A DNA stretch of 64,000 bases, taken from positions 24,689,832-24,753,831 of the forward strand of contig OZ038458.1 in the NCBI GenBank assembly GCA_964036195.1. Direction: 5' to 3'. The position numbers and the translations under genes were made by a program. Under the pieces are notes generated by a model. That model saw only the letters and a list, made by a program, of their open reading frames with translations, searched no databases and was not told the DNA's origin. Of the stretch, positions 33,701 to 63,619 are shown piece by piece. The DNA comes from Sphaerolaimus hirsutus (taxonomy: Eukaryota > Nematoda > Chromadorea > Monhysterida > Sphaerolaimidae). The first letter of the stretch is position 1. Each line of letters starts with the position of its first letter.

Positions 33701-34816
33701 AGGTGCCACTCTGAGAGCCAGTGAAATATCATGTAAAATTTAAAATGTCATGTAAAGTGTCAAAAGTCATGTAAATTGCCATGTAAAATGCCGTTGAAAG
33801 TGTCAAAAATAATGTAAGATACCCTGTGAAGTGGCAAAAAACGTTTGCCATTTTACAGTGTTTTATTTAATTTTTACACTTTGAATGACATTTGATATTT
33901 TACGGAGAATTTTACAGGGTTTGAGAGTGCCCCAGGAGGCATATTTTAACGAGTTGAGAAGGCCGGAGACCAAATTGCCTAATGGTTGGTTTTGGTTGGT
34001 ATGTTCGGGGTGTAACAATGTATTGTATAAAATATTTTTCATGTTTAATTGAATTTTTTCAACAAATATCAAATATTGGCACAAAATTTCAGATTACTTT
34101 TGTATGTCATTTCTAGTTTTTTGGGTAAATTAGAGAAAATATATTATAAAAAATTTAATTAATATTGACAGAAAAATTAGGATATCAGATCAAATAGTAT
34201 ATATGGAGCACGTTTTTGGGCTTTTTACAACTATAAACATGAATTCACTTCCAAAAAATCTCCCACCTCAAATAGCCACCCGCTCCAAATAATCACAACC
34301 CCAAATAACCCCTACCTCAAATAATCCCCACCCAAATAATCACCACCCCAGATAATCTCAACCCCACAAATCCCTATCTACCACCTCTAAATAATCCCCC
34401 ACCTCAAATAATCCCCAACTGCATATAATAACCACACCAAATAATACACAGCCAAAATATACCCCTCCCCAAATAAACCCCTCCCCAAATAATCCCCCAC
34501 CCCAAAAAAATCCCCTACCCCAAATAATACCTCACCTAAAATAAACCCCACACTAGAAAATACCCAACCCTAAATGACCCCCACCCTAAATAGACCCTTA
34601 CCCCAAAAAATACATCACCCCTAAAAATTCCCTACCCCCAAATAATCGCTTATCTCAGGAAATCACCCACCCCAAATAATCTTCAACCCCAAATAAAACC
34701 CCACCCCAAACACAGGAAAGCCACTGCCTCTGAGTGCGATGCAATTAGAAAAACCAAAAGTTACAGATGTTCCAGGTGCCCAAGATCCTATGAAGGACCG
34801 GACTAAAACCGCCTGA
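24496..34816 (+). CDS. GSK3-like serine/threonine protein kinase with Lys/Asp-rich N-terminus, 11 exons
   Basis: Exons 24496-24711, 25365-25682, 26283-26433, 27384-27503, 27972-28163, 29968-30195, 30973-31043, 31806-31943, 33513-33702, 33936-33984, 34716-34816 join in one frame: 590 residues and TGA. All introns are GT-AG and all phases agree. Kinase features: glycine loop GNGVFSNVY (third Gly is Ser), VAIKK lysine, HRDIKPEN catalytic loop, DFG, the GSK3-type activation-segment Tyr (PYQVTRYYR), ALE instead of APE, and the GSK3 C-lobe signature FNELRRPETKLPNG. About 180 lysine/aspartate-rich, probably disordered residues precede the kinase. GSK3 phosphorylates primed substrates. The divergence here resembles the fast-evolving GSK3-like kinases of nematode sperm, but that role is inference. 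The start codon is upstream and was not found. Confidence 0.85.
25365..25682 (+). CDS. GSK3-like gene, exon 2 (KD/KN-rich)
   Basis: Acceptor ATTCTGCAG, donor ATTGG then GTTGGT. 105 full codons rich in K, D, N, S. The phase fits both neighbours. Confidence 0.6.
26283..26433 (+). CDS. GSK3-like gene, exon 3
   Basis: Acceptor CACCCTACAG, donor GCCAAG then GTGGGG. Encodes an Arg-rich segment ending HEVNFINYAK just before the kinase domain. Confidence 0.65.
26746..27159. mobile_element. CCGTATATCC MITE in GSK3-like intron
   Basis: TACCGTATATCCTCGAATAA at the left, TTATTCGAGGATATACGGTA at the right. Confidence 0.8.
27384..27503 (+). CDS. GSK3-like gene, exon 4 (glycine loop)
   Basis: Acceptor TACATGTAG gives GTVDRRTITLDHAGARLIGN and the glycine loop, in phase with both neighbours. 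The AG seven bases later would put a stop in frame. Confidence 0.8.
27972..28163 (+). CDS. GSK3-like gene, exon 5 (VAIKK, N-lobe)
   Basis: 64 codons from VAIKKSFPQDRID to MPMTVAAFE, aligning with the GSK3 N-lobe through the hinge (FDFMPMTV against GSK3 LDYVPETV). Confidence 0.85.
28209..29029. mobile_element. hAT-like CAGAGTTG element (GCGTAA arms) in GSK3-like intron
   Basis: Starts CAGAGTTGCGAAAGCG, ends AACAACTCTG, with a perfect 8-bp duplication CGCTGCAC (28201-28208, 29030-29037). Arms are TTACGCTTACGC repeats. A CCGTATTACC MITE (28575-28737) is nested inside. Confidence 0.85.
28575..28737. mobile_element. Nested CCGTATTACC MITE
   Basis: TACCGTATTACCTCGAAAAA to TTCAAGGTAATACAGT, with G runs, inside the hAT-like element. 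Confidence 0.7.
29073..29525. mobile_element. CCGTATTACC MITE (inverted relative to 51883)
   Basis: TACCGTATTACCTCGAAATA to TTCGAGGTAATACGGTA. The interior is the reverse complement of the copy at 51883-52311. Confidence 0.82.
29530..29695. mobile_element. CACACTAG-family MITE, decayed
   Basis: Palindromic AAACTCATAAGTCAACTTTG ... TTTATGACTTACC with central GTCAACTACAGTT; the right end is AGTAGTGTG. Confidence 0.5.
29867..29946. mobile_element. Short CCGTATTTCC MITE next to exon 6
   Basis: TACCGTATTTCCCCGAAATG to TTTCGAGGAAATATTTACG; it ends about 20 bases before the acceptor at 29967. Confidence 0.6.
29968..30195 (+). CDS. GSK3-like gene, exon 6 (HRDIKPEN, DFG)
   Basis: 76 codons containing WAYQLLLAVAFSHAYNICHR, DIKPENMLLD and LSDFGNAKW. 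Clean acceptor CCCCCACAG and donor CAG then GTATTC. Confidence 0.92.
30246..30494. mobile_element. MITE with TATACTCGGCAGAC and ACTGGAGTATA ends
   Basis: An inverted copy lies at 45629-45889. Both share CTCTGCCCTCGCAC and CACGCGTGCAGGGT near their ends. Confidence 0.65.
30773..30934. mobile_element. CCGTATTTCC MITE
   Basis: TACCGTATTTCCTCGAAATA to TTCGAGGAAATACGGTA, just upstream of kinase exon 7. Confidence 0.75.
30973..31043 (+). CDS. GSK3-like gene, exon 7 (activation segment)
   Basis: VTRYYRALELCLGNEHYGLP then VDI, aligned with GSK3 SRYYRAPEL...DVW. The Pro of APE is Leu. The tryptophan codon is split by the intron. Confidence 0.85.
31072..31295. mobile_element. MITE with GGCCAGTTCCGCAAGT-type ends
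   Basis: Left CGGCCGCAAGTGGAGAAGTG, right CACTTGCGGAACTGGCC. Interior inverted repeats of GAAGTGAAATGGCAAAAGC. The end sequence matches the array-armed element at 14005. A decayed relative is at about 35210-35320. Confidence 0.65.
31398..31619. mobile_element. GGCGCC-type hAT-like MITE fragment
   Basis: GTGATG...AAAGCGCCA at the left, ACATCACTAG at the right, GCGCC-rich interior. Related to 53110-53940. Confidence 0.5.
31806..31943 (+). CDS. GSK3-like gene, exon 8 (C-lobe)
   Basis: SCACVLAGFLFGDIFLNGSD through FGSPNDKQLMALNPK, matching the GSK3 GCVLAELL...LGTPT...MNPNY region. The donor GTATAATACCGTATTTTC sits directly at the end of a CCGTATT MITE. Confidence 0.85.
31947..32038. mobile_element. 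Half of a CCGTATT MITE at the exon 8 donor
   Basis: TACCGTATTTTCTCGATTAC starts four bases into the intron. The right half is absent where a CAGAGTTG element begins. Confidence 0.6.
32039..32823. mobile_element. hAT-like CAGAGTTG element (GTGTAA arms)
   Basis: CAGAGTTGTTAAGATACCGG at the left, TTTCGCAACTCTG at the right, arms of AAGTGTAAGTGTAAATACAC. No 8-bp duplication is visible at this copy. Confidence 0.75.
32870..32925. mobile_element. GGAAAACGG-array fragment
   Basis: CGGAAAACG ... GGAAACTTGACACACTA: one degraded end of the array-armed hAT-like family. Confidence 0.5.
32933..33435. mobile_element. TATACTCGGC MITE interrupted by a CCGTATTTCC MITE
   Basis: The right end GGGTCCGCAGAGTATA and the interior match the family at 8508. 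The MITE at 33126-33409 sits in its GCATACTTT segment. Confidence 0.6.
33126..33409. mobile_element. CCGTATTTCC MITE, nested
   Basis: TACCGTATTTCCCCGAAATA to TTCGAGGAAATACGGTA, with several C runs. Confidence 0.75.
33513..33702 (+). CDS. GSK3-like gene, exon 9 (C-lobe)
   Basis: Encodes LATKTRDKWPREIEQSLEVG to LLDGMFEYEPQLRYRAIDALQ. The last part aligns with GSK3 LLEYTPTARLTPLEA. The donor is CTGCAG then GTGCCACTC, the start of the element intron. Confidence 0.85.
33703..33935 (+). mobile_element. Intron 9 of the GSK3-like gene, formed by an inverted-repeat element
   Basis: The whole 233-base intron is one element. It begins GTGCCACTCTGAGAGCC right after CTGCAG and ends TTTTACAGGGTTTGAGAGTG then CCCCAG right before the next exon. 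The interior has ATGTAAAATGTC units and their inverse. The donor GT is the element's first two bases, and the acceptor AG belongs to a flanking CAGG that also precedes the element. Confidence 0.82.
33936..33984 (+). CDS. GSK3-like gene, exon 10
   Basis: EAYFNELRRPETKLPN, the conserved GSK3 segment FFDELR...KLPNG. It lies directly after the element intron. Confidence 0.88.
34258..34710 (+). repeat. Degenerate CCCCAAATAATC tandem repeat
   Basis: About 450 bases of 16-18-base units such as CCCCACCCCAAATAATC filling most of the last intron of the GSK3-like gene. The C-rich run ends at the acceptor. Confidence 0.75.
34716..34816 (+). CDS. GSK3-like gene, terminal exon
   Basis: Acceptor CAAACACAG; completes the Gly of KLPNG and continues KPLPLSAMQLEKPKVTDVPG to a TGA at 34814-34816. 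The phase fits exon 10. Confidence 0.75.
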
Positions 34817-34840
34817 GAACAATTTTTATTATGCCCACTG

Positions 34841-35038
34841 TACGCTAGTTTTCAATCGAAATTTTGGAAACTCATACCTTGACCGAATTTGAGTTCACTA
34901 GAATCATTTATTTATTGATCTCCATCAACATTAGTTGACAGACATTTCATTATAGTCAACTCGAGTCTAAAGTAAGCCTTCAAAGCTCCCGGAGTTTACA
35001 AAAATTTCCGTCGAAAACTAGTGCGGCATTATTGTTGG
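34841..35038. mobile_element. CACACTAG-family MITE
   Basis: GTACGCTAGTTTTCAATCGA to TCGAAAACTAGTGCGGC, central ACATTAGTTGA; same layout as 13575-13770. Confidence 0.55.
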
Positions 35039-35482
35039 GTGGAGTGTGTGAATAGTGATTAAACCGATTGGATACTTATGTACCCTGGAAATACTTATAC
35101 GCCTCAATCGAATCTTATACTGGTAAATGAAGAAATGAAATTTTAATGAAATGATTTTGTTTATTTTTTAGACGTTTTTATGGTCACTTTCATTGTCAAA
35201 AAATATAATTGTGAAGCTTGTGGAGAAGTGAACTCTGTCAAAAATTGGTTTTGAATAAAGAATGTAGCTTTTATCATTTCTCATTTTACTTTGCCACCTG
35301 CGTAATTGGCCCCTGCGTTCGAAAAATTTCCAGTAATTTATACTCGCTAGGGAATAAATGCCACCCGCACTATTCAATTTTTTTGGAACATCGCTCATCA
35401 AAGAAATTCCTCGCGGGAAAATAGTGGGGAACTAAGAAATTTGGATATAAATTTTCACTGTCGGTTGCGCTCGGACATTGCC

Positions 35483-35710
35483 GGGGGGTGCACTGATACA
35501 CACATCTGCCCGTTACGCACATTTGCCCGTTTTTTCACTTGACACTTTTCCAAGTGATTTTCAGATTTGAGTGAAGTTAAAAACGCTGCGCAATGACATT
35601 AGTGAACTTTTTTCACTTCACTCATATCTGAAAATCACTTGGAAAAGTGTCAAGTGAAAAAAACGGGCAAATGTGCGTAACGGGCAGATGTGCGTATCAG
35701 GCCTGCCCCA
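35483..35710. mobile_element. Hairpin MITE with CTGATACGCACATCTGCCCG-type ends (copy 1)
   Basis: Near-complete palindrome: CTGATAC...ATCTGCCCGTTACGCACAT, then TTTTTTCACTTGACACTTTT, and the inverse. A second copy in the opposite orientation is at 40911-41137. Confidence 0.8.
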
Positions 35711-35939
35711 TTGCAGCGACGAAACTGGATGTTACAAAACAAGGGACGGCCGAACAACAGAACAACAAGCCGAAAAAGTCGCCAGATAGTTCAAAGGCGA
35801 CTTGGCAGCGCCGCCCGGTCGCAGTTTGGCGCATGCTGATTTTCGCGACGTAGCACATTTTTCGGCAGCGCCCACAGTTTTAGCCGTCGGAAAAATGGCG
35901 GCGCCATATTGACGCCGAAGACCGAACGCCAAAAATAGC

Positions 35940-36178
35940 GCTAGTGGTTTTGGTCATGTGTCATGTAAAAGACCCTGTAAAGTGTCATGAGTATCCAAAT
36001 ATTATGTGTTTTTTTGTATCCAAATCTTACGTCAAAAGAAAACAAGATTTGGATACGATAAAATAAGATTTGGATACACATGACACTTTACAGGGTCTTT
36101 TACATGACACATGACCCATGACATTTTACAGGGTCTTTTACACTTTACAGGGTCTGGGAGTGCCCCCAGGTATTTCTC
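35940..36178. mobile_element. Intron-type MITE, partial copy outside a gene
   Basis: Contains AAGACCCTGTAAAGTGTCATG and ends TTTACAGGGTCTGGGAGTGC then CCCCAGG, the same right end as the element introns. The left GTGCCACTCCC end is missing. Confidence 0.6.
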
Positions 36179-37082: not shown

Positions 37083-37490
37083 CATTACCATATTTCCTTG
37101 AAATACCCCCTGAGGGTGATTGTTTCATAGTGAAAATTTTGAGGGGGTTAAACAAGGCGGCAGGGGGGGGCGTAGTTCGAGGGGCAGGGAGCTTTTTTTT
37201 CACCAGAAATTTTCAGAACTCCCAGTACTAATTTGTTCTTTGTAATGCATGCAGACATAGAAAAATGCAACCATAATCACTATGTATAAGAGTCTATAGC
37301 CTTATATAAGCATGTAGATGGTAAAAAAACAGGTTCAATTGTAACACAGTCATTGTTTTTAATGTGTTCTGCATTGCCTGGATCACATACTGTAGCTTTT
37401 GTCATTTATAGTCTCTTTACTCAATTTGGGGGGAGGTATTTTGAGGGGGCTTCAAAGAGGGGGGGGGGTATTTTGAGGAAGAATGGTATT
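37083..37490. mobile_element. Diverged CCGTATTTCC MITE
   Basis: TACCATATTTCCTTGAAATA to TTTTGAGGAAGAATGGTA, with G-run interior. Confidence 0.6.
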
Positions 37491-37742
37491 CTCATTTGTC
37501 CCGAGGAATGCACCAACACAGCAATAAATTAGTTTATTAAATGTATGGGATGTGCAATGTGCATCTGTCTGCATACTTCCAAATGTTTTGACATATTTCT
37601 AGAAGCATCAAGAATCATTGGATTAAGTGTTTAAAAACATTTCATCTATCACCAGAGGATGATCGGATTCTTCCAAAACTGCTGAAAACACGTTGCAGTG
37701 TATTTTATGTATTTCACCAGCCACACCATTGGAAAGTGTGTC

Positions 37743-39456: not shown

Positions 39457-39710
39457 GGGGGAAATCCCAAGCCCTGTAAAGTGTAAAGTAAAGTGTCAAA
39501 TGTAAAGTCAAATGCAAAGTAAAGTGTCAAATGTAAAGTCAAATGCAAAGTAAAGTGTCAATCAAAACAAAAAAGAAAAGATTTTATTACTGAACTTTGC
39601 ATGACAATTGATACTTTACTTTGCATTTGACTTTACATTTGACACTTTTCTTTGCATTTGACTTTACATTTGACACTTTACTTTACTATTTACAGGGCTT
39701 GGGATTGCCA
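39457..39710. mobile_element. Intron-type MITE variant (CCCAAGCCCTGTAAA ends)
   Basis: Left ATCCCAAGCCCTGTAAAGTG, right TTTACAGGGCTTGGGATTGC. Interior is AAAGTAAAGTGTCAAATGT and its inverse. The left end lacks the GT that the element introns use as donor. Confidence 0.65.
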
Positions 39711-40017
39711 CCTGACCGCACACTTGACAGTTAAATCTACCATATAACACCTGAATAAGGAATTGTTTTTTAAATCATTTTTCTCATCACATTTTACTTT
39801 TTTCTTATGGGTGACTTCGCGCTGGTAACTTAATCCATCCATATTTGCGGCATTCTCATTGTAAAAGCGTACAGACTTTTACTTTTAAAGTGTACTGCGT
39901 CTGTGTACTTTTTCATACTTGAATTTTGATTTCCCCTCTGCCGACCTGATAAGGCACATAAATTGGTAATTCGCGCCCCAAAAAACCAAACTTTAACCCA
40001 AAACACTCCCCCCCCAG

Positions 40018-49200: not shown

Positions 49201-52200
49201 GAAACCATGATATTTTGCGAACATTACTGTTTTTCACCTTAAAACTTAATACAACATTGTGTACAATTTTTGACAGTTTTTATAATTTCGTGTGCCGATA
49301 GGTGAATCGTGATTTCATTTGTTTAATAATTGTCATCATTCTTATTGATACGATAAATATTACGCTTTATCGGCATAAATAAAGTCTGGAACAAAATGAC
49401 GTTTTGAACAGTTTTGTGTTCCTAGTATAAAACATTGATTTTGCCGTTCTGTCATTTCGTTGCACATGCTTCCAGGCTTTCTTTATGCATTTTCTTGCCA
49501 TTTTTTTGCGTTTCAGCGTGTATTTTTCTGTTGCTGCATACTTTGCAAATTGTTAAATTGCACACACTTATTCAGTTTAACCTGAAAAATTTATCCAAAA
49601 AATCCAAGTAACCAAAGTACTTAAATTATTCAATTATTTTGCTCTAGTACTTTAATTTTTTAAATCTGCTCTTAGCGTCTTTTGGGGGCATGCCTAGGGT
49701 GTCAAATTTCCGTTTCCGTTTTCCGTTTCCGCCTTTCCGCAGGAAAATTTTTTACCTTTCCGTTTTCCGTTTTCCGGCAGCCAAAAAATTTTTACCTTTC
49801 CGTTTTCCGTTTTCCGGCAGCCGAAAATTTTTTACCTTTCCGTTTTCCGTTTTCCGGCAGCTGAAAATTTTTTACCTTTCCGTTTCCGTTTTTTCGGCCC
49901 ATTTTTCCATTTTCCGGCTGAAAAATTTTTACCTTTCCGTTTCCGTTTTACCAGGCCATTTTTTCATTTTCTGGCTCGATTTTCAGTTTTCTGGCATTTT
50001 TCCATTGTTTTTCCAATCTGTATTTATCTTCAATTGGCTCATTCCATTGTGTTGTTTTTGTCTCTTGGAGCAGCATTGACAACTGGGATTTCAGGGTCAG
50101 TGAAACAGGTGCTGTGAACCCAATTGGGTCATATGCTGACACCAATAATTTATTCAAGTTTTGTCTGGTTGGTGTTGTGATGCTGTCAATTTGCAATTTT
50201 GGTGTTGATATTGCCAGCATGTCTGTTCAGTGATTTTATTTCATGCCCATTACTGCAACAATTTTATTCACCTTTGGACTCCTGTCATTTTCTGCTATTT
50301 CATTCATGACTGATCTGGAGTTTGACAGCCATTCCCTCATGTTCATAGAACATTGGTGATATAAAGCTTTGACATTGTAATATAGTTCTAAAGCTTCAAC
50401 TTCATTCGTGACACTCATGATGAAGTTATCGATGTAAATGTTGTTTATTATCATCGCCAACTGGTTTCCTTCCCCTTCATTATGTTTTGTTGTCACAGAT
50501 CTCAATTATTCCCTTTTCTAGTTGGTTGTCCAAAACTTTCCAGTATTGTTTGAATAAGTTTGGATCTTTGTTGAATCTTCTTATCAGTGATTTAAACCGC
50601 ACCAAGGCTTCTGCTTTTCCCGTGGGCAGGTCACTGATACTCTCTTTATACGGCCAGTCAATATAGTATCGTTTGTTGTTGTCATTGAATTTTATGCTAT
50701 TTATTATCATCTCCTCTGCAATGTTGTCATCAATTGCATAGGAGTCATCAGTGATTCCCACTGCTTCTAGACTGTGAAATTGTCGTAGTGTTTCCTTTCC
50801 TATGGCCACTATGGCTACTTTTTGATGATTTTTTGTTGGTTCAGTTAAGCTTGAACTACAAGTGAAGTTACAGGCATGATCCATAGTTGCAGAATGTACA
50901 GCTACCACAATCAAAGCCAAACAGGCAAACCTGCATGCAGGTTTTCCTTCTGCAAATTTGTCTATTACCGTGCTAATTTCACTTTATTTTTTTCCGTTTC
51001 CGTGAAAATTTTGCTTTCCGTTTTCCGTTTTCCGGCATTTCATTTTTCCGTTTTCCGTTTTCCGGCCGACAATTTTTTTTTACCTTTCCGTTTTCCGTTT
51101 TCCGCTGAGTGAAATTTTTTTACCTTTCCGTTTTCCGTTTTCCGGCCGACAATTTTTTTTTACCTTTCCGTTTTCCGTTTTCCATAAAGTGAAAAAATTT
51201 TACCTTTCCGTTTTCCGTTTTCCGTAAAAAAAATTTTTTGACACCCTAGGCATGCCACATTTCCGGGCCGCGCACACTACTACAACGTTGAAATTAGGGA
51301 AACTCATAAATCTGTATTGAACACATTTGAGTTTACCAGAATGATTGATTTTTGTAGTTGACAGACTTATCATTCTGGTGAACTCAAATGTGTTCAAAAC
51401 GGATTTATGAGTGCCCCAAATTTCAGTGGTGTACATACTAGTGTGCGCAGCGCCAAAAATGACAACAAAAAAAACAGGACCATAAAAACCCTCACTCATT
51501 TTTGCCTCCCTTTCCACGCAAAAAAACACCGCAAAAACCACCCAACCCCTCAACCACCCCCCCCCCCCCATCTCAGGAACTAGAAAGCCGCGCGCACACT
51601 CTAGGGGGGTCTCCGCGTATCATAACGCGCCGCCGGACCACAGCCGCTACAGCGGGGGATAAAAATTCTTCCGGTGCTACCAGGGTCTATGGGCAGAGGC
51701 AGCAGAGAAGGGTTAGTGAGTAGGGATTCGAAGGGGGATAGGGATTGGGATTCGAACCGGGTACCCGGATGTTGAGTGGTTGCGGAATTTGTCTGCGATT
51801 GGAATATTTTTAGAAGGGTCAGGTCTGATCTGATTTTTTATCACACGTAGAAGCGATTTTTTGGATAAAATTTTTTTGTATTTACCGTATTACCTCGAAT
51901 TACCCCCCCCCCCCTTGAATTAACCCCCACCCCCTCGAAATACCCCCCTAAAATTTGGCTGAGGAAATAATAACCCCCCCCCTCGGAATACCCCCCCTAA
52001 GATTGAGTGTAAAGAGAACGTACATGACAAATACCGCAGTTTGTGATCTGTACAATGCAGAACACACGTTAAAACTGATGATTGAGTGATGTTAGGGACG
52101 GGTTTATGTGTATAAACAGTTATATATGCCTATAAATACATCTACATCTATGTAATTGTTTCCTACGTCTGAGTATGGGGAATTTCCGAAAATTTCTGGC

Positions 52201-55200
52201 GAAATAATAGACCCTCCCCCTCGAATAAACCCCCCCCCCTCGAATTATCCCCCCTTAAATTTTGCTGGCGAAATAATAAACCCCCTGGGGGTATTTCGAG
52301 GTAATACGGTAGATGTTTTAGTCTCACGCTAATTCGCTGAAAAATAGAACATTTTGCTCTTAATTCAGTTTCAATATGGAAAATTTGATTATAACGTACG
52401 CCAAAAACGACCACCAAAACCCCCCATCAATATACCGCCACCCCCAAACAACCCCTTCCCCTTCCCAAAAACCACCCCAACATACCCCCAAACAACCCCC
52501 CCACAGGTAGCGCGCGTAGCCCTGATGCGCAGCGAGGACGATTTGCACGCCATGCGGGGGGTGCCCCTTCGGCCCGGCGAGCGGTCGCCCCCCACCAGAC
52601 ATTTGGTGCAGGTGTATGCGGATGGGGATGGCAGCGGAAGCGGCGAAACTTGGAGGGTGGTTAGAGGAGGGCCAATGGAGGGCGTGCAGGGGGGATATGG
52701 ATCCCCTGAGTTTGATAGGTGGGTTGGGCTGGGGGTTGGGTGGGGGCAAATTCTGGAAGTGATGGAAATCATAAATAGTGTTCAAACATATAGAGTTTTG
52801 ATGTTAAAACATAGAAAAGCTAAAATAGGGCAAATAGCCAAAAATGGGTATATTGACACGTATAGTCCTATAAACATATTAGTACCCTGGGGAGTTATTT
52901 TTTCGTCTGAAATTTTTATTCAAGGGTGACTTATTCGCTCAGACCTGGGGGTATTTCGATGGGGGTCAATTCAAGGAGGGGATAATTCTAGGAAATACAG
53001 TATTCGAGTTTACACTGATAAGATGAATAGTTTTTAACTTCAGAGACTTTTTTAACATACAGCAATGCACATTGCGAACAAAAATACAATTTTGCCGGGC
53101 AGTCTCGGCTAGTGATGGAAAAGCGCCAGAAAAAAAGGGCGCCAGGCGCCAATGGCGCCATGGCGCCTTACGGAAACGAGGCGCCAAGCGCCAAGGGCGC
53201 CACAGAAAAAGAACGCCAGGCGCCAAGGGGGCCAGGGCGCCAATTGAAAAGAAGGGCGCCAGGCGCCAATGGCGCCAGATCAAAAAAGCGAGTAGAATAC
53301 CCTGCGTGTGCTAAAAATGCTTCTCCAGCACTAGTGCACACATTCACTTCTTTATTCATGTTCTCCCGGATGTAATCAGCAAAAATGAGACTAGCAACAA
53401 ACTTTTGTGCAAAAACCGTACTCACACGTGATTTTCAATTTGAACTCTTTGAAAATTGTCATTCGACAAAACAAGGAATGCTCTTCGAATAGATTTTCCA
53501 ATTATGTTTTCTTGAAGCGGACGACAAGCGACAACGGAATTCCGATAATTTCAATCCGTTGATTTACGAGTTTGCAAGTTCACCGGTCTATCATGCTCAG
53601 CTTTTGATCCGGTACACGTATCTGATAAAAATGGGATAAAACGTATACATCCACTCACACCACTTCATGCATTTTCCGGTGAATTTTGATCATTCACAGA
53701 CCCGTTTTTGTCTTTTTTATTCATTCACGCAGCACTCACCTTGAAACCCTGCTGGCGCCATTTTGGCGCCCTTTTAGGGCAGGGCGCCACGGAGAAAGGG
53801 CGCCATGGCGCTTTTCAGAAAGTGGGCGCCAGGCGCCAAGGGCGCCACAGAAAAAGGGCGCCAAGCGCCAATGGCGCCATGGCGCGGCGCCCTTTGGCGC
53901 TTTCAAATGGCGCCAGCGCCATGGCGCCATTCCATCACTAGTCTCGGCATAAAAACATCCAACTTAAGAACGTGATGATCCTATTAAAATATCGCCCAAC
54001 AAAAAATGACCCCCCCCCCCCAAAAAAAAAAACACAAACAAAAACAACAACAAAATAACAACAACACAGACGTGAAGTCCAATGGCGGCAGGGCCACGGC
54101 GCCAGGGAGCTGCAGTCGCGCAGCGCAAACTTCACCGAAACCATGGAAACGGTCGAAATCACCAAAAGACAGGTGCCACTCCCAGACCCTGTAAAATGCC
54201 CTGTAAAATGTCAAATGTCATGCAAATTGTCAAATGTCATGTTAAATGCCCTTGACATTACTTTTGACACTTTGTTGACATTTGCCACTTACAGGCTATT
54301 TTACAGGGTCTAGGAGTGTTCACAGGTGGCCACCGAAGAAATAAGGGTCGCCAAAATGTCTGGCAAATCGCCAAAAACTCTGCGGCGCGTGTTGCCAGCC
54401 GGCGCGCTGCCCCACTCCGAGCTGCCTGATGTGCCACTCAAAGTGCCCAGGTGCGCACACATGGTTGTGAAAAAATGTTTAATTTTATGTAAAAAAAGCA
54501 TACCTATTTGCTGGGTAAATAAGTCGGTACCAAGTAAATAGCTAATAGGTTTATTTTTTTACACTGAAGGTGCTTCAACTCCGTTTTATGTGTACTTTTC
54601 AACATACGAGTGCAGAAAATGTACTTTTTCAAACTAATTCAATGATGTATTTATTTTGTGAAACAATCTGCTTGATCATATAGGTATTCAACAGACTTAT
54701 TGAAGAGATATTTATGTTTCTCTTACATTTATCTTGCAATAAATAAGTCAATTTTCATAAGTAAAAAGTTTCACTCTATGTATTTGATTTCACATTTATT
54801 GAGCCAAATGTACTTTTACATTTTACATAAAAATAGCATAAAAACACTTAGAATTTACACTAAAGTTTTCAGTGGTCAAAAACTCAAAACACTTCACATT
54901 TACTTTCACTTTCCAAAAATATCGGCATATTTAACTGCAGGTGTGACCACGAATATGGCTATGGCAGAACTGAAAAGCAAGTGATTGCTGACAGGCAGAG
55001 ACATGCCCATCAGGTCAAAACCATCAAGCCATCAGCTGTGACAAAACCCAGAACCACCATCATTCACCCAGTGAGGCATGAGGAACTACAGGAAAAACCT
55101 CTCATTGTGCCCTGGTGCCATTCCCAAACCCTGTAAATGCCCTGCAAAATGTAAAATGTCATGCAAAGTGTCAAAAGTAATGGAAAATGTCAAACATCCA

Positions 55201-58200
55201 TTTTAAAATGCCAGACAATATGACATTTTCAAGAGCATTTTAGGCGACTTTTGACACTTCGCATGACATTTGACATTTTACAGGGCATGTTACAGAGTCT
55301 GAGAGTGCCCCCTGGTGTGAACGCGAATATGGCTATGGGCGCACTGAGGAACAGTATTTGGCTGCGAAACGTGTCAGTCACATGCAGCACAGAGAGTTGC
55401 CATTCAGGGTACTCAAGGTGCCAGAATGCCACCATGAATGGGGCTATGGCAGGGACAAAGATCAATGGATGGCTGACAAAAGGCAGCATGTTCATTCACC
55501 CCATGCTCAGCATGTCACCAAACATGTCAGCCACACCAGAGTGCAGTCAGTCAGACCTTCACCACAGATTGTAGTAAGGCAGGTGCCACCAGCTTCATCA
55601 TTGGCATATGATGAAATGGACCAACAGATACTATTGGTGCCAAGATGTGAACAGGAATTTGGCTATGGCAGAAGTCAGGAACAATATCTGGCTGACAAAC
55701 ACGACAGGCAGACATGGGCACAAAGACAAACAGTTGCTGCAGTTCACAAGGCAGCCCCAATAGTTTCTGGTAACCTGGCATATGGTGAAATGCATCAAAC
55801 TGACCTAATTGTGCCAGTCTGTGAACATGAATTTGGCTATGGCCGCACCAAAGAACAGTTTTTAGCAGGCAAGCAGAAAAAGTTGAAACTGGAAGAGCAC
55901 TCAATCACCAGAAAGGACTCTGGTCTCATCCAAATGTCACCAAAGGCTCAGTTAATTGAGGAAGTTGATCAACACATGACTATACCACAAGCAACTACGG
56001 GGATGACCAGAGAAAAAGTACCTGTGACAGGCATTTTGCTGGATCAAGAGTTGGGCCAGCATAACTTGGTGGTACCCAGATGTGAACGTGAATTTGGCTA
56101 TGGCCGCACCACTGAAGAAGTGCTGAGAGACAGGGACACAGCTGTCAAAGATCATACCATAATGGGGATGCACCAAAGACAGGCACTCACTATCTCAGCT
56201 CTGAATGACCATGAATTGCCTTACAGTGACTTGCGTGCACCAAGATGCCAAAATGAATGGGGTTATGGCAGAACTGTGGAACAAGTTCTGGCTGACAGGA
56301 TGCACAAAGAAGAGGAAATGGTCAGACAAACTGCTAGACCACTCAAAGTCAGCCACTTACATCACCATGAACTGCAGGGTGAAATCTTAACAGTGCCAAT
56401 GTGTGAAAATGAATGGGGCTATGGCAGAAACAAGGAACAGTATCTAGCTAACAGGCAAGCAGCATTGGAAAAACAACAACTGGAAGCCAGGCAACTCAGA
56501 ATTGAGCAACACAAACTACTGACAGTGCAGCAGGTCCCAAAAGTAGTCAGTGCCAATGCAGAGCTGAAGCATGCTGAATTGGGTGAGAAAAATATGGATG
56601 TACCAAAATGCCAAAATGAATGGGGTTATGGCAGAACTGTGGAACAAGTTCTGGCTGACAGGATGCACAAAGAAGAGGAAATGGTCAGACAAACTGCTAG
56701 ACCACTCAAAGTCAGCAACTTACATCACCATGAACTGCAAGGTGAAATCTTAACAGTGCCAATGTGTGAAAATGAATGGGGCTATGGCAGAAACAAGGAA
56801 CAGTATCTAGCTGACAGGCAAGCAGCATTGGAAAAACAGCAACTGGAAGCCAGGCAACTCAGAATTGAGCAACAAAAACTACTGACAGTGCAGCAGGTCC
56901 CAAAAGTAGTCAGTGCCAATGCAGAGCTGAAGCATGCTGAATTGGGTGAGCAAAATATGGATGTACCAAAAGCCCAGTATGAGTTTGGTTATGGTCGCAC
57001 TGGGGCACAATATGAAGCTGACATGGAATCAAGGCATTACTGGCATTCTGTCAGATCCACTGAAGGACGCATTGAACACAAAGAACTGTCCACTGGTCAT
57101 CTCAGTGTGCCAAAATGTGAGCATGAATGGGGATATGGTAGAGATGCTGAGCAGATCAAAGCTGACAAACTGAAACCACCAATCTATGTCACAACATTGG
57201 CCAGATCACACTCTGGTCTCCTGTCAGTAGAAGAACACCAAAGGCTAATGTTTGAAAAGTATTGGACAGAGGCCAAACAGAGAATGGTCACAACAGATAT
57301 GGGTCACAATGAAATGCAAGCATGGAATCTGGATGTGCCAAAATGTGAAAGGGAATGGGGCTATGGGCGCAGTACAGATGAATACCTATTTGACAAGAAA
57401 TTTGAGAAAGATTGGGCTGAGAAGCAAAAGACAATGGTGCTCACAGACATGTATGATGATGAAGTGAGGCATGAGCCATTTGATGTGCCAGTTTGCACAC
57501 GTGAATGGGGCTATGGCAGAACACCAGAAGAGTATGCATCAGACAAAAAGTTTGAAAGAGACTGGGTGGAAAAGCAGAAGACCATGGTGCTTACAGAAAT
57601 CTCAGATTCTGAATTGCTTCATGAGCGCATTTATCTTCCTCCATGTGAATATGAATGGGGGTATGGCAGAACTGAGGAGCAATATAAAGCAGACCAAGAA
57701 TTCAAAATGATATGGCTAGAAAAGAAAAAGAACATGGTTTTGACTGACTTGCCACACCAGGAATTAGGTCATGAGGAAGCAGCAGTCCCAAGACCAAAAT
57801 ATCAGTTTGGTTATGGTAGAACTGAAGAGCAGCTCATAAAAGACAGGCATGCCCACAGCCTATGGATGGTCAAACGTGAAGGGCTCACAGACTTATCACA
57901 ACTAAAACACCAAGAAATGAGTCCAGCACATTTGGCAGTGCCAGAGTGTGAACATGAATGGGGTTATGGCAGAACTGAGGAACAGGTACTGGAAGACAGA
58001 CAAAAAGCAGAGGAATTGGCCAGATGGGAAGCTGAAGAGAAGACAAAAAGATCACAGGTTTTCTCTGGCATCATGCCAAACCAGGAGGTGACACATGAAC
58101 ATTTCCATGTACCACAATGTGAAAATGAGTGGGGCTATGGCAGAACTGAGCAACAATACCTTGCTGACAAAGCAGACAAAGAACAGTGGGCTTCAAAACT

Positions 58201-61200
58201 TGCAGTCATGGAGCTGACAGACATGCCCCATCAAGAGCTAGGACAAGAAGATCTCACAGCACCAAAATGTGAACATGAGATAAACTATGGTCGCTGGCTT
58301 GACAGGGATGAATACATCTCTGACAGGTCATTCAGGGATCACTGGACAGAAAAGAAGAAAACTATGGTGGTTAGCAGACAAGACAACATGGAGTTAGGAA
58401 ATCAGCCACTTGATGTGCCAAAATGTGAAAGGGAGTTTGGCTATTGTCATACTGAAGAAGAATATCTACAAAGGCTGGCATATTTGGAGCAGTGGAATAC
58501 CAAGAAAAGTGCAATGGTGCTCAGTGACATGACAAACACGGAAATGGACCACCAACCACTCAATGTGCCCAAATGTGAACATGAACTGAATTACGGCAAG
58601 TGGACTGACAAAGAAGAATATCTTGTTGACAGGTCATTCAGAGAGCAGTGGGCAGAGAAGAGAAAAGCCATGGTTGTAACCAAGCAGGACAATACTGAAC
58701 TGGGAAATGAGCCATTGGATGTGCCAAGATGTGAAAGAGAAATTGGTTACTGCAATACAGAGGAGGAATATCTTGAAAGACTTGCATATTTGGAACAGTG
58801 GAACACCAAGAAAAGTGCTATGGTACTCAGCAACCTGGCACATGATGAAATGCCTGAGGAAAAACTCCGTGTGCCAAAGTGTGAATATGAGTTTGGCTAT
58901 GGCAGAACAGATGAAGAATGGCAGGAAAGGGTTGAATTTCTCAAGACTTGGCAGACAAAAAAAGATGCCATGGTTAACACAAATCTTGGAAACCAAGAAC
59001 TGACACCAGAACCACTTGGAGCAGAGAGGTGTGCATACCAGTTTGGTTATGGCAGAGATGAAGCTCAATACAAACATGACAAGGAAACACGTGAACTGTG
59101 GCAGTCAACGAGGGTTGGCTTAGTTGGTGGCACCTTGATTCACACTGACATGCACCAGACAAATTTGGAGGCACCGAGATGTGCCAATGAATGGGGTTAT
59201 GGCAGGACTGAACAACAAGTGTTAGCTGACAGAGAGGAAGCAGCAAAAAAGCCAAAACCTCCCCCAGTACCAGTGGCAGCTTTGATGGCAAATATGGAAC
59301 TGCCCAGGGCAAAAATGAATGTCCCAAAATGTGAATATGAATATGGCTATGGTAGAAGTGAAGAGGAATGGGTCAAGGAAAAGCAATTCATTCTGGACTA
59401 TCAGATGAGGCAGAAGGAAGTTGGACTGAGTCAGATTGGCAATTCTGAACTGCCACAACAACCTTTGGAGGCACCAAGCAGTATGTACCAATTTGGTTAT
59501 GGCAGAAATAAGCAACAATTACTACAGCAGAGAGAATCATTGAAACTTTGGACAGCAAGAATGAAGCACTTCAGAGACTGGAGTGTTCAGCCACATCAGG
59601 AAATTGAAAATGAAGAATTCACCTTGCCAAAATGTGAACAGGAGTATGGATATGGCAGGGACATTGACCAATGGCTGGCTGATAAACGCAAAGCCAGCAA
59701 GCGAAGGCAAGTCCAACAGAGAATGGCTGAAACTACACTGCAACTTCAAGACCAAGAACTGCCACATGGCATTTTGAATGTTCCACTGTGCCATCATGAA
59801 TTTGGATATGGGCGCACTCGGGAACAACTACTGGCTGACAGGCAGCAGGCTGAAATGCTGACAGTGGAACCAACAAAAATCAGACAGAGATTAGTTGTGG
59901 AGAATCTGGCTGATGGTGAACTTCATTCACTGCCATTGAATGTCCCAAAATGTGATGTGGAATATGGTTATGGCAGAAACAAGCAACAATTACTACAGCA
60001 GAGGGAATCATTGAAACTTTGGACAGCAAGAATGAAGCACTTCAGAGACTGGAGTATTCAGCCACATCAGGAAATTGAAAGTGAAGAATTCACCTTGCCA
60101 AAGTGTGAACATGAGTATGGATATGGCAGGGACATTGACCAATGGCTGGCTGATAAACGCAAAGCCAGCAAGCGAAGGCAAGTCCAACAGAGAATGGCTG
60201 AAACTACACTGCAACTTCAAGACCAAGAACTGCCGCATGGCATTTTGAATGTTCCACAGTGTCATCATGAATTTGGATATGGGCGCAGCCAGGAACAACT
60301 GCTGGCTGACAGGCAGCAGGCTGAAATGCTGACAGTGGAACCAACAAAAATCAGACAGAGATTAGTTGTGGAGAATCTGGCTGATGGTGAACTTCATTCA
60401 CTGCCATTGAATGTCCGAAAATGTGATGTGGAATATGGTTATGGCAGAACAAAGGAGCAGTACCTGGCTGATCAGCGGATCAAGCTGGAAAGGGAAGAAC
60501 GCAGCAAAACCATTGATGCCAGCAGACTGCGCTATAATGAGCTAGACAAAACTGCACTCAATGTGCCACCATGTGAGGAAGAATTCAATTATGGCAAGTC
60601 TGTTGGTTATGGCAGCAAGGTGGCTCATATGGTCTCTGAATATGAGAAGCGCACCAGCCACCTGCAAGAGCACAGCATCATGCGCAAAGCATCAGGTCTG
60701 GTACAAGTTGAACATCAAGAACAAATCACAGCTGAGCCAGCCAAACCAACAGACCAGCCAGCCTCAATGTGGTTAACAAATCAGGAAGTCCAACCAGCCA
60801 CATTGAATGCACCAAAGTGTGAATATGAATATGGTTACGGTAGGACAAATGAACAGGTTCTTGCTGACAGGCACAGCAAAATGAGGCTGGAACAAAATGT
60901 GCCAGCAGTACACATGGCACATGGTGAACTTCAGCACACAGGGATGAATGTGCCAAAATGTGAAATCGAGTATGGCTATGGCAGGAGCAATGAACAGTAC
61001 TTGGAGGACAAACAGTTCCAATCATTGTGGATGGAAAAACAAAGAACCATGCACACTGGCCAGCTGCAAGATCAGGAGCTGGCATTCAGCCAACTTTCTA
61101 TGCCAAAGTGCCACAATGAATTTGGATATGGCAGGACAAAGGAACAATATGAGGCAGACAAAAATGTTACTATACAAGCAACACAAAGAACAGTCCCAGT

Positions 61201-63619
61201 TCCAGTGCCTGCTAGTAATCTGCAACACCAGGAATTGCATCAACTGCCATCCAACCTGCCTCCATGCCTGAATGAATTTGGGTATGGCAGGACTAGTGAA
61301 CAAATTGCTGAAGACAGGGCAAAATACAGAGTGGCCAAAGTTGGTGATAATGGCATGAAAACATATTATACAAGGGAAGATCATCTAGTGGAATTAGAGC
61401 CAGCTCACACAGAAATGACTTATGTTCAAAGGACAGAAATTCCTCCAGCCAGTCACATGCCAAATCAGGTAAGGTTCGCATGACAAACTGGTTGTTTTTA
61501 CAATAACTGAAAAGTTGTATTTTTAATTGACTGAGTTTATAATCTGCAATGAGATATATTTACCACACACCATCTGAAAAAAGTACAATTTTTATTTTTT
61601 TCTAATTAGATATTTAACATTGCTCTCACTAGTGTGCATTCGGTGCACAATGTTCCACATTATTTTTTTCAAAATACGGTAAACCTTTGTAATGCATGCA
61701 GTCTGATCAGTATAACTGGGTTTTTCTCCACAAATCCACAGGAGCTTCAATTCTCTGCTCTTCCAATGCCACCGTCAGAAACTGGTCACTCCTGGTCCTA
61801 TGACGTCATCACAGGAGAAACTGTTCGCATGGACACAGAAACCATGGTTGAAAGGCAGGCGCCCAGCACTCCACCCAGGTGCCACTCCCAGACCCTGTAA
61901 AATACTCTGTAAAATGTCAAATGTCATGTAAATTGTCAAAATTCATGTAAATTCAAACCACGTTTGCTTTTTTCCGAGAAGCTTACATGACTTTTGACAC
62001 TTCGCATGACATTTGACATTTTGCAGGGCATTTTACAGGGTCTGTGAGTGCCGCCCAGCACGCCCAGCCTGAGCAGAAGGCGCATTGATTATCAGCAGAT
62101 GGAAGGAACTTCCGAACCAGAAATGGTGCGTTTGATGTCTTGAATTGTGCATTTTATATGCATTTTCAACCAAAAATACAGAAAAAAATTTTTAACTTGG
62201 AAATGTTGTTGAATATGAGAATTTTCCAGGAAAAACAACAACGATTTTTAGTGTTTTTCTAGTGGTGACGTAAAATTCAAAAACTTCGAAAATGTTCAGT
62301 TTTTGTTTACCATCGTTAGTGGTGCCTTATTACCATTGGACGCTGCAGGCGCTGTCAAAAAAGAACACAAAAGCATCAGTCGACATCGCGTTCCCATAGT
62401 TTTAGCATTCACTGGTACCGTATAAAATAAGTTTTAGATAGCTTAAATGTGTAGTAGTTGAGTGAACTTACTACAAATTCACTCAACTACTACAAATGTA
62501 TATTATTTTAACACATTTCTAGCAGCTTAGTGCCTGGTGGCAGTCCCACTCCCTGTAAAGTGTGGAATGTCACACATACAAATTTGCCAAATGTTTATAA
62601 TGCAAAATGTCAGAAGTTATCGTCACTAGGATGTAAACAAAATTAAATTAGGCGCTTTTGGACCACCCAACTTTGTGATGTTCACTAAACCCCCACAAAA
62701 ATTCCAAAACACACATTAACCCCTCATACCCCTAAAAACGCAGGACCAGTCAAACAGCTACACCTACCAGCAGTGGGTGATCGAGCAAAAAGCTCCCAGC
62801 ACGCCGGGCAGCCTGACATCCACTTTGATGAGGTGCCAGGAACTGCCGCAAACCAGTTTTGAAGTGCCCAGGTGTGAGAGAGAGTTTGGATATGGCAGGA
62901 GTGCTGAACAGGTGGGTGGGGTGATATTTGAGTGGAGATGGTTTGGGGGGTGGATTGGGAATTGGGATAGATGCGTTTTGTTTTTATTTACGTTGTCTAC
63001 TGACTGGTCGCATACATATCTCATCTGAATAATAACCCAATTGTTGTATTAGCAAAAAATACAAATTGATTTCAATGTGCAAAAGTTTGTCGCAGCAATA
63101 TTCACATCACTTCAATCTATTCATCAAAATGTGGCCGCATTTTGGCCGCGTATGAAACAATCCTTGGCCGCATATGAAAATATGAAATCGTCAGAAATCT
63201 CTTTAGAAATACAGAAATGACATTCAAATGGCCATGCTCGTACTAGGCATAAAATATACCGCATTTCCTCGAATTACTCCCCCTTGAATAAAAACACCGC
63301 CACCTTCAAAATTTGCTGGCGAAATTTTAAACCCCCTGGGGTATTTCGAGAAAATACGGTACCTCTTTTTCCTGAGTAGTAATTTGAAACCACCACCAAG
63401 CAACTTCAGTCTATCTATTCCCAAAAATCTGGTAAACCTCGAATTGACCCACCTTCAAAAAATCAGATCGGAATGGAGCGTTTGCATTTGAAGCAAGTCG
63501 GCGGCGACCAAACCGACAGCCGTATGGATTCATCATGGACAACTGAAAGTACGGCTCTGTACGAAATTGTGCGCAGCGAACCGACCAGTCCCGAAGTGCC
63601 CCATGTTTGTGGGCGGGTT
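40018..63619 (+). CDS. Giant GYGR-repeat protein with spectrin-like N-terminal part, about 16 exons
   Basis: Exons 40018-40240, 40666-40867, 41792-41944, 42342-42429, 44513-44658, 45138-45242, 51577-51711, 52507-52718, 54070-54172, 54326-54450, 54941-55114, about 55306-61468, 61742-61878, 62059-62125, 62744-62911 and probably 63467-63616. Every join agrees in phase; without the last exon this is 2733 codons. Exons 1-3 contain a spectrin-repeat-like helical segment (ATWLDETA ... QCEQIRDKWNALGHK). Exons 4-9 are low complexity. From exon 10 on a unit of about 56 residues recurs, with core E-L-x4-L-x-V-P-x-C-E-x-E-x-G-Y-G-R-T-x-E-Q-x-L-A-D: about 39 copies. I see no signal peptide or membrane segment and no known domain name fits. 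The spectrin-like part hints at a cytoskeletal scaffold (inference). Start and end are not established. Confidence 0.75.
40666..40867 (+). CDS. GYGR-repeat gene, exon 2 (spectrin-like helices)
   Basis: LGELNEASGEQCCYSDKEAW through QQCEQIRDKWNALGHK. The spacing of Trp and the amphipathic pattern resemble helices B and C of a spectrin repeat. Donor AAG then GTGGGT. Confidence 0.72.
40911..41137. mobile_element. Hairpin MITE with CTGATACGCACATCTGCCCG-type ends (copy 2)
   Basis: Inverted copy of 35483-35710. The palindrome core CTGATAC ... GTATCAG is at 40918-41127. Confidence 0.8.
41792..41944 (+). CDS. GYGR-repeat gene, exon 3
   Basis: 51 codons from CIRLVVDLNSERGRPRYVSR to GGDSVSTPDL; acceptor with a long C tract, donor TTG then GTGGGT. 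The GC-rich exon contrasts with AT-rich flanks. Confidence 0.7.
42342..42429 (+). CDS. GYGR-repeat gene, exon 4
   Basis: TLTPSPGATYGGLRQLSASP then LYYETTDTT; acceptor CCACACAG, donor ACTG then GTGAGT; phase 0 to 1. Confidence 0.7.
42487..42934. mobile_element. CCGTATTACC MITE with AATATAAGG units
   Basis: ACCGTATTACCTCCAATATA to TTAGAGGTAATACGGTA; the interior repeats CTCTAATATAAGGTACC. Same outermost bases as the C-run MITEs but a different satellite-like interior. Confidence 0.75.
43168..44335. mobile_element. hAT-like CAGAGTTG element (GTGTAA arms) with nested MITE
   Basis: CAGAGTTGTTAAAATACCGG to TTTCGCAACTCTG. Perfect 8-bp duplication GTATTATA (43160-43167, 44336-44343). The interior is highly similar to 32039-32823. 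A CCGTATTACC MITE (43375-43791) is inserted. Confidence 0.88.
43375..43791. mobile_element. Nested CCGTATTACC MITE
   Basis: TACCGTATTACCTCGAATTA to TTCGAGGTAATACGGTA. The copy at 32039 lacks it, so it gives an empty site. Confidence 0.85.
44513..44658 (+). CDS. GYGR-repeat gene, exon 5
   Basis: DSSQHHTNIVTIRGASSTMP and an Arg-rich tail; donor TGGAAG then GTAGGG. The phase fits exons 4 and 6. Confidence 0.6.
44659..45137. other. Intron 5 of the GYGR-repeat gene, AT-rich
   Basis: AT-rich stretch with TTTAAATT-rich segments; no element ends seen. Confidence 0.5.
45138..45242 (+). CDS. GYGR-repeat gene, exon 6
   Basis: 35 codons: LTFQLELGPGPDQAHQHRSY to NYKPVGGLQ; acceptor TATGTGCAG, donor CTACAG then GTGAGT. 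Confidence 0.62.
45629..45889. mobile_element. MITE, inverted copy of 30246-30494
   Basis: TATACTCCGGTTACTTTACA to GTATCACGTACGCCGAGTATA. Confidence 0.65.
46323..46623. mobile_element. CCGTATTACC MITE
   Basis: TACCGTATTACCTCGAAATA to TTCGAGGTAATACGGTA, G-run rich. Confidence 0.8.
47198..48196. mobile_element. Element with GGTGTGCTTCTAAAAGTA ends, interrupted by a MITE
   Basis: Long terminal inverted repeats: left GGTGTGCTTCTAAAAGTACC, right GGTACTTTTAGAAGCACACC. Near the right end a GATCGGTACTTTTAAA motif is repeated. The 47313-47734 MITE is nested inside. Confidence 0.75.
47313..47734. mobile_element. Nested CCGTATTACC MITE
   Basis: TACCATATTACCTCGAAATA to TTCGACGTAATACGGTA; interior as in 29073-29525. 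Confidence 0.8.
48517..48958. mobile_element. CCGTATTACC MITE
   Basis: TACCGTATTACCTCGAATTA to TTCGAGGTAATACGGTA; interior similar to 43375-43791. Confidence 0.82.
48959..49686. other. Intron 6 of the GYGR-repeat gene, AT-rich spacer
   Basis: No element ends or exon signals seen. Confidence 0.5.
49695..51248. mobile_element. hAT-like element carrying BEL/Pao pol fragment (copy 2, inverted)
   Basis: TAGGGTGTCAAA to TTTTTTGACACCCTA, with a perfect 8-bp duplication GGCATGCC (49687-49694, 51249-51256). Same arms and cargo as 9772-11736 but on the other strand. About 0.4 kb of the reverse-transcriptase core is deleted (junction near 50500). Confidence 0.87.
49948..50920 (-). pseudogene. Captured BEL/Pao pol fragment, internally deleted
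   Basis: Minus strand: 50920-50480 matches the N-terminal part of the fragment at 10093. 50505-50236 and 50220-49948 match its C-terminal parts. The segment from LPHQP through AFLQI is missing. Confidence 0.82.
51271..51441. mobile_element. CACACTAG-family MITE
   Basis: GCACACTACTACAACG to GTGTACATACTAGTGTGCGC; AACTCATAAATC and its inverse near the ends. Confidence 0.6.
51577..51711 (+). CDS. GYGR-repeat gene, exon 7
   Basis: 45 codons: ELESRAHTLGGSPRIITRRR to VYGQRQQRR; acceptor after a C tract (CATCTCAG), donor AAGG then GTTAGT. It follows a 6.3-kb intron filled with nested elements. Confidence 0.62.
51883..52311. mobile_element. CCGTATTACC MITE (uninterrupted counterpart of 9537-11946)
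   Basis: TACCGTATTACCTCGAATTA to TTCGAGGTAATACGGTA. The interior around 52110-52126 is the undisturbed version of the site where the hAT-like element sits at 9.77 kb. Confidence 0.85.
52507..52718 (+). CDS. GYGR-repeat gene, exon 8
   Basis: VARVALMRSEDDLHAMRGVP to GVQGGYGSPEFD; acceptor CCCCCACAG, donor GATAG then GTGGGT; ends in phase 2. Confidence 0.7.
53110..53940. mobile_element. hAT-like GGCGCC-rich element with non-repeat cargo
   Basis: TAGTGATGGAAAAGCGCC to GCGCCATTCCATCACTA. Perfect 8-bp duplication GTCTCGGC (53102-53109, 53941-53948). Both arms are GGCGCCA-type repeats. The middle (about 53290-53740) is ordinary AT-rich sequence including an exon-like open stretch near 53515-53600. 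Confidence 0.87.
54070..54172 (+). CDS. GYGR-repeat gene, exon 9
   Basis: Completes an Arg codon and continues REVQWRQGHGARELQSRSAN to VEITKRQ. The donor is the start of an element intron (CAG then GTGCCACTC). Confidence 0.72.
54173..54325 (+). mobile_element. Intron 9 of the GYGR-repeat gene, formed by an inverted-repeat element
   Basis: 153 bases beginning GTGCCACTCCCAGACCC right after GACAG and ending TTTTACAGGGTCTAGGAGTG then TTCACAG. The pair ACAGGTG occurs at both junctions. The frame hits a TAG near the end if not spliced. Confidence 0.82.
54326..54450 (+). CDS. GYGR-repeat gene, exon 10
   Basis: VATEEIRVAKMSGKSPKTLR to PHSELPDVPLKVP; the first partial repeat unit. Donor CCCAG then GTGCGC splits the unit at VPR/C. 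Confidence 0.8.
54941..55114 (+). CDS. GYGR-repeat gene, exon 11
   Basis: CDHEYGYGRTEKQVIADRQR to HEELQEKPLIVP. One complete GYGR core. It ends at CCCTG, directly before an element intron. Confidence 0.8.
55115..55314 (+). mobile_element. Intron-type element in the GYGR-repeat gene without an AG at its expected acceptor
   Basis: Begins GTGCCATTCCCAAACCCTG after CCCTG and ends TTACAGAGTCTGAGAGTGCC before a second CCCTGGTG. Precise removal would need a TG acceptor. Splicing at the internal CTGAGAG (55305) keeps the frame and adds three residues (C-A-P) between VP and WCE. Confidence 0.75.
55306..61468 (+). CDS. GYGR-repeat gene, giant exon (37 repeat cores)
   Basis: An open stretch of about 6.16 kb. 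It starts inside or just after the element intron (55306 if CTGAGAG is the acceptor, 55315 if the element is removed precisely) and ends at AATCAG then GTAAGG. It contains 37 GYGR-type cores with a mean spacing near 56 residues. A few cores diverge (GYCHT, GYCNT, NYGRW, NYGKW). Two recent in-frame duplications are visible: 363 bases (cores at 56249 and 56612) and 471 bases (59510 and 59981). Coiled-coil-like, charged linkers follow many cores (LWTEKKKTM-like). Confidence 0.9.
61742..61878 (+). CDS. GYGR-repeat gene, exon 13
   Basis: ELQFSALPMPPSETGHSWSY to VERQAPSTPP; acceptor AATCCACAG. The donor CCCAG then GTGCCACTC is again the start of an element intron. Confidence 0.75.
61879..62058 (+). 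mobile_element. Intron 13 of the GYGR-repeat gene, formed by an inverted-repeat element
   Basis: 180 bases beginning GTGCCACTCCCAGACCC after CCCAG and ending TTTACAGGGTCTGTGAGTGC then CGCCCAG. CCCAG is present at both junctions; the second copy supplies the acceptor. Confidence 0.85.
62059..62125 (+). CDS. GYGR-repeat gene, exon 14
   Basis: STPSLSRRRIDYQQMEGTSE then PEM. The reading APSTPP-STPSLSRRR is seamless across the element intron. Donor AAATG then GTGCGT. Confidence 0.72.
62126..62743. other. Intron 14 of the GYGR-repeat gene
   Basis: AT-rich. A fragment of the intron-type MITE (GCAGTCCCACTCCCTGTAAA) lies at about 62540-62625. Confidence 0.55.
62744..62911 (+). CDS. GYGR-repeat gene, exon 15
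   Basis: 56 codons: DQSNSYTYQQWVIEQKAPST to VPRCEREFGYGRSAEQ. It carries a complete repeat core, which ties the 3' exons to the same gene. Acceptor AACGCAG, donor CAG then GTGGGT. Confidence 0.82.
63257..63361. mobile_element. Short CCGTATTTCC MITE
   Basis: TACCGCATTTCCTCGAATTA to TTTCGAGAAAATACGGTA. Confidence 0.75.
63467..63616 (+). CDS. GYGR-repeat gene, probable exon 16
   Basis: Acceptor AAAATCAG; phase 0; IGMERLHLKQVGGDQTDSRM to SPEVPHVCGR, resembling the start of another VPxC unit. The donor could be CAT then GTTTGT or CGG then GTTTTT. If unspliced, the frame runs into a GGCGCC-type element and stops at 63680-63682. Confidence 0.5.

Follow-up and report, generated by a model that had tools for sequence, protein, structure and literature searches.

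Copies of a NuwaI-like MITE at CAG sites in exons as probable GT-AG introns of a nematode

Described introners and gained introns

Introners were reportedly described in Micromonas and Aureococcus by Huff et al. in 2016. According to the accessible part of a large survey (Gozashti et al. 2022, PMC9860276), the introners of Chrysochromulina, Aureococcus and others are made by transposable elements, many of them with TIRs or short TSDs; in a Chrysochromulina example the family brings the 5' splice site and the 3' site comes from the TSD. Introners were found there in only two animal groups, of which the copepods are named. The hairpin introners of Amoebophrya carry inverted repeats and direct repeats of 3-5 nt at the exon borders, non-canonical introns there make up more than 60% and a family-specific repeat was not found, as far as the accessible text of PMC7789003 goes. 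The gained introns of Caenorhabditis are GT-AG introns, 166 of the 168 without indels in the flanking exons, and no source sequence could be identified for any of the 168 (PMC9169325, accessible part); where nematodes get their new introns from has been hard to pin down so far. NuwaI transposons (PHIS superfamily, Harbinger-like) make CWG target duplications and their TIR usually starts with GGG; the accessible part of PMC4482050 mentions no intron role for them. Splicing in tunicates is the subject of PMC13326754. Among the papers listed in the literature searched, with preprints and most subscription papers outside its scope, neither an introner in a nematode nor a NuwaI introner was found.

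The family treated here resembles the Chrysochromulina introners in that the 5' splice site would lie in the element and the 3' site would come from the TSD, but compared with the introners in the accessible part of PMC9860276 the TSD is CWG, the family is abundant outside exons too and its host is apparently a nematode. Inverted-repeat hairpins with short direct repeats at the exon borders are shared with Amoebophrya, whereas here one family is seen, with GT-AG geometry at CAG sites (PMC7789003, in part). As with the Caenorhabditis gains, the candidates would be new GT-AG introns in a nematode; unlike in those gains (PMC9169325, accessible part), a candidate source element is visible. With NuwaI the family shares the CWG duplications. 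One of its ends starts in many copies with GGG, the usual start of NuwaI TIRs, and the other with GTG; unlike in NuwaI, no transposase is linked to its TIRs, and its copies appear as candidate introns (PMC4482050, accessible part).

We propose, with a probability of about 0.84, that insertion of this NuwaI-like MITE at CAG in exons yields GT-AG introns in a nematode. An abundant non-autonomous MITE with the habit, and probably the kinship, of NuwaI would enter CWG, preferentially within CCWGG, and duplicate the CWG. One TIR starts with GTGCCA and the other, as its reverse complement, with GGGGCA; the donor would, by inference, stem from a G-to-T change close to the end of one TIR. Where an insertion into a coding exon puts the GT end directly behind a CAG of the coding strand, the product would be exon-CAG/GTGCC...GCCCC-CAG/exon (slashes mark the borders), a canonical GT-AG intron with GT from the element and AG from the duplicated target, the exon retaining its CAG; excision of this unit by the spliceosome would give back the original reading frame exactly. 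The transposase target, CWG, matches CAG/G, the motif that splice sites prefer at the exon border. The hairpin would draw the two ends of the element together, copies at non-coding sites would remain ordinary MITEs, and exon copies, presumably gained within this lineage, would survive mainly where splicing works. If the copies are spliced, the origin of new introns in these worms can be seen directly in the family. The numerous copies located outside exons provide an internal control, and the step from transposon to intron could be measured in one animal genome.

Anatomy and target duplication of the element family

The window, that is the whole stretch of 64,000 nucleotides that was analysed, contains the following features.

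33513..33702, + strand: GSK3-like exon upstream of the 33703 copy; start approximate
33703..33935, + strand: candidate intron in the GSK3-like kinase; element 33703-33932 and CAG duplicate 33933-33935, left copy 33700-33702
33936..34000, + strand: GSK3-like exon downstream of the 33703 copy, bounded by a GTATGT donor; end set by eye
35970..36169, + strand: partial family copy, inverted repeat, 3' end GAGTGCCCC followed by CAG
39458..39711, - strand: relative of the family with CAG on either side, in DNA that appears to be non-coding
54173..54325, + strand: candidate intron in the CMI2B-like repeat gene; element and CAG duplicate 54323-54325, left copy 54170-54172
55115..55314, + strand: CTG-type copy in the CMI2B-like repeat gene; element and CTG duplicate 55312-55314, left copy 55112-55114
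55315..61483, + strand: very long CMI2B-like exon, about 2,050 codons with 35 YGR/YGK motifs; end taken as the end of the open frame
61879..62058, + strand: candidate intron in the CMI2B-like repeat gene; element and CAG duplicate 62056-62058, left copy 61876-61878

It was confirmed that the four inverted-repeat elements which the preliminary description had placed here, one in the GSK3-like kinase and three in the CMI2B-like repeat gene, sit exactly between coding segments. All four start with GTGCCAYTC, as had been described; ACCCTGTAAA, said to lie further in, comes after the 5' end in three copies, and the 33703 copy reads GAGAGCCAGTGAAAT there. The CAG duplication claimed for three elements was also found, since 33703-33935, 54173-54325 and 61879-62058 each consist of the element and one CAG. 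At CAG sites the layout is CAG/GTGCC...GCCCC CAG/, with the first two bases of the element at the donor position and the AG of the downstream CAG copy at the acceptor position. Each of the four folds as RNA better than all 200 shuffles (z -13.3 for the 54173 copy, -15.4 for 61879, -10.3 for 55115 and -8.7 for 33703). The copy at 39458-39711, which has an open joined frame in neither direction, and the partial copy ending at 36169, whose 5' end is not recognisable, do not look like introns.

The host was characterized by protein domains. Col_cuticle_N domains (cuticle collagen N-terminal) are generally regarded as specific to nematodes. The genome has 56 matches to this profile, all listed ones over the cut-off, and no match to tektin; these two results point to a nematode, as the preliminary description had supposed. 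The CMI2B-like repeats fill one exon-like open frame (window 55315-61483) in this genome.

In the 348-Mb genome ACCCTGTAAA occurs 15559 + 15509 times on the two strands vs 718 + 755 for the reversed control, thus the family is present well beyond chance. For closer analysis 37 elements of the window and the fetched loci were delimited by hand, with 48 candidate pairs as the starting point. Left out were nested starts, sites retrieved once on each strand, paralogues (L026, L029, the second copy in L040, L044) and a copy without recognisable duplicate (L007 at 3143). Thirty of the loci (L016-L045) were found by similarity to a window element and are therefore not a random draw, fourteen 10-kb stretches (L002-L015) were chosen arbitrarily, and L001, chosen for a cluster, contributed no element. 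The arbitrary stretches held five kept elements, which suggests complete copies on the order of 10,000 as a rough figure.

The family, a MITE, duplicates its CWG target and has the ends GTGCC.../...GCCCC (GTGCCASTCCCAGACCC / GGGGCASTCCCAGACCC). The 5' end is GTGC in 30 of the 37 elements and the 3' end exactly CCCC, GGGG on the other strand, in 24. In strict register the W is identical on both sides in 22 of the 24 sampled copies that have CWG on both sides, and in 39 of the 43 exact-ended copies of C1:0-22.33 Mb (CAG/CAG 23, CTG/CTG 16, CTG/CAG 4, CAG/CTG 0). The bases next outward of CWG agree in 13/24 and 18/24, the flanking C and G disagreeing in 11/24 and 6/24; a three-base duplicate within a CCWGG-like target fits these counts, and, given the preference for CCWGG, a duplicate of 5 bp is conceivable but unlikely. 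Target duplication of 5-8 bp, hinted at by individual copies (CCCTGGTG at 55115, for example), was rejected, only CWG being common to nearly all 24 copies. Mismatched duplicates in strict register are CTG...CAG in six cases, L032 and L038 (CTG left, CAG right) being examples, and CAG...CTG in none (two-sided p 0.03, 43 paired plus sampled copies), as if a T-to-A change were able to supply the acceptor later. Outside strict register, L004 and L030 at 1501 have CAG left and CTG right, with no sign of coding.

Duplicated loci hold some of these insertions in common. L018 and L026 (C14:18710033 and C14:18699560), about 10 kb apart, carry the same four insertions around carboxypeptidase exons, which seem to predate a duplication, and the duplicated loci L034 and L040 share insertions as well.

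Reading frames, homology and splice signals at the joints

In all four window cases the coding frames are separated by one element and one three-base target copy, nothing else, and the joined flanks form an open reading frame; at 54173 and 61879 this open joined frame is the coding support. This anatomy bears on the possibility that the MITE later invaded or overwrote older introns. Introns commonly contain MITEs, and in L018 at 969 and 1889 copies lie, by eye, apparently in non-coding DNA between exons. Later invasion would not, however, produce an element with one target copy only, nor the duplicated target that is visible in the sampled copies, and we regard it as highly improbable.

Of the 37 elements, 34 can be read through the joint in an open sense frame and 25 in an open antisense frame. 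The Pfam scan gave matches above the curated cut-off at 6 of the 34 sense joints (7tm_1, Peptidase_M14 twice, Med10, DUF726, Aconitase_C) vs none of the 25 antisense joints (p 0.034), where no Pfam match was found at all. Three of the six span the joint, both Peptidase_M14 and the aconitase. The clearest case is the aconitase (L020), whose alignment to aconitases of solved structure runs gap-free over 67 residues. The Peptidase_M14 matches (L018 at 649 and 1501) span the joint with loop insertions near it, 58 residues corresponding to 32 profile positions in one and 86 to 69 in the other. Med10 (L045) stops 2 residues before the joint and 7tm_1 (L009) begins 14 residues past it. Under the Pfam cut-off, the ASC joint (L028) is spanned over equal lengths (E 7.8e-4), the PDB search with it giving no relevant chain, and weaker matches (E up to 0.01) were obtained for TPR_17, CMI2B-like, SMN_Tudor, FANCI_HD1 and DUF2382. 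The joined GSK3-like peptide aligns without a gap to a GSK3 chain (best E 2.5e-4); the Pfam scan of the joined exon gives no kinase match. Removal of the element and one duplicate restores homology across the joint in the GSK3-like, aconitase, ASC and carboxypeptidase genes, which supports the intron reading. The preliminary description had noted two unrelated genes, GSK3-like and CMI2B-like in our assignment; both hold, and the fetched loci add the carboxypeptidase, aconitase and ASC genes. The candidate introns are many and similar, with the similarity reaching both splice borders as placed from the frames.

The genome-wide search for element ends which the preliminary description had proposed gave exact 20-base 5' ends next to CAG in 1399 and CTG in 1207 cases, and 3' ends next to CAG in 1515 and CTG in 967; the ratio differs between the two ends (p 1e-7, subfamilies pooled), so the would-be acceptor copy leans to AG. 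The contrast between the ends is much smaller among the 43 paired copies, with CAG in 23/43 at 5' and 27/43 at 3'. The CAG excess at the 3' end is 548/2482, about 22%, and one of the five elements of the arbitrary stretches (L009) lies apparently within a coding exon; from these two figures perhaps one copy in five, as a loose guess, is an intron. Many family copies do not look like introns. Donor loss is slightly rarer in CAG copies (114/1513) than in CTG copies (127/1334), a weak difference (p 0.059); among the first 100 non-GT copies listed, read by eye, GC occurs 21 times in CAG copies vs 40 in CTG copies and GG 65 vs 49.

The splice signals themselves are less favourable. GTGCCA is a weak donor. 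In either orientation the TIRs (e.g. window 54190-54310) include GTAAAA at one side and TTTTACAG at the opposite one, hence cryptic splice sites accompany near-consensus copies. These are stronger-looking signals, and by arithmetic their use in a consensus element would add 37 nt and shift the frame. The weak donor together with these signals counts against splicing at the exact borders.

CTG-type exon copies and presumed transposon kinship

The suggestion that the donor comes from the element and the acceptor from the duplicate holds for the anatomy, the genome-wide counts and other genes, but fails at CTG exon sites. CTG-type copies occur in conserved exons of the aconitase (L020), the ASC gene (L028) and the window gene at 55115, with no AG at the joint, and the splice logic of CAG sites cannot cover them as the sequences stand. 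The stretch 55115-55314 had been listed as an intron; it does consist of the element and one CTG and has an open joined frame, yet its 3' joint lacks AG, the joint reading CCCTG/GTG ... CCCCCTG/GTG. Exact removal there gives IVPWCERE, matching the repeats of the CMI2B-like gene itself.

These AG-less copies would be expected if exon copies were recent disruptive insertions (segregating knock-outs or pseudogenes) rather than introns. Against this, the CAG bias at the 3' end and the one-way CTG-to-CAG mismatches point to selection for an acceptor; at E up to 0.01 the aconitase exon pair matches one genomic site only, its CTG-type copy being in the only aconitase locus (C7:1694381-1694745); and the insertions shared by L018/L026 and by L034/L040 are not brand new. 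We consider disruptive insertion quite improbable, and the reading of CAG-type exon copies as introns is preferred.

For the CTG-type copies, the odds seem about even that they are spliced at cryptic sites in or near the element, with codons added or removed. In-frame GT/GC-AG pairs are present for the aconitase, ASC and 55115 (up to 12 pairs listed for each): the aconitase could gain 36 nt via GTAAAG/TTTTTACAG or, using a GC donor, 21 nt, ASC could gain 21 nt with a GC donor or lose 9 nt, and at 55115 a gain of 9 nt with GAGAG is offered by the AG at 55304-55305, in frame with three extra codons. Every such choice would, however, change conserved protein sequence, and several need GC donors. 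It is rather unlikely, though conceivable, that CTG-type copies are excised exactly by a GT...TG (or GC...TG) joint, the ends being held by the hairpin, some copies later gaining AG by T-to-A in the downstream duplicate; if true, nematode introns would be born on a non-AG acceptor and would then mature to GT-AG.

Regarding the origin of the family itself, one mark of NuwaI (PHIS), the CWG target duplication, is present. Autonomous NuwaI copies would be expected to carry a DDE transposase and a Myb/SANT protein together with these TIRs. No autonomous element with the TIRs of the family was found in the one DDE copy read over 4 kb (L046), a Harbinger-like DDE transposon (L046:1-4000, C1:20512300-20516299) rejected as autonomous partner for lack of matching ends. 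Among the DDE matches listed on C1, checked by eye, one, at 27123437, lies about 3 kb from an exact element end (27127322), and this proximity may be chance.

DDE_Tnp_4 has 163 matches in the genome. Most listed ones have near-equal score and carry, at an identical position, some 190 additional bases in which TGA occurs four times; these bases look like a common intron, and the pattern suggests that a Harbinger-like transposon spread recently. In the window, 10030-11196 and 50236-50983 are open frames of one retroelement, presumably BEL/Pao, in opposite orientations, with an RVT_1 match, just under the cut-off, in 10030-11196 only.
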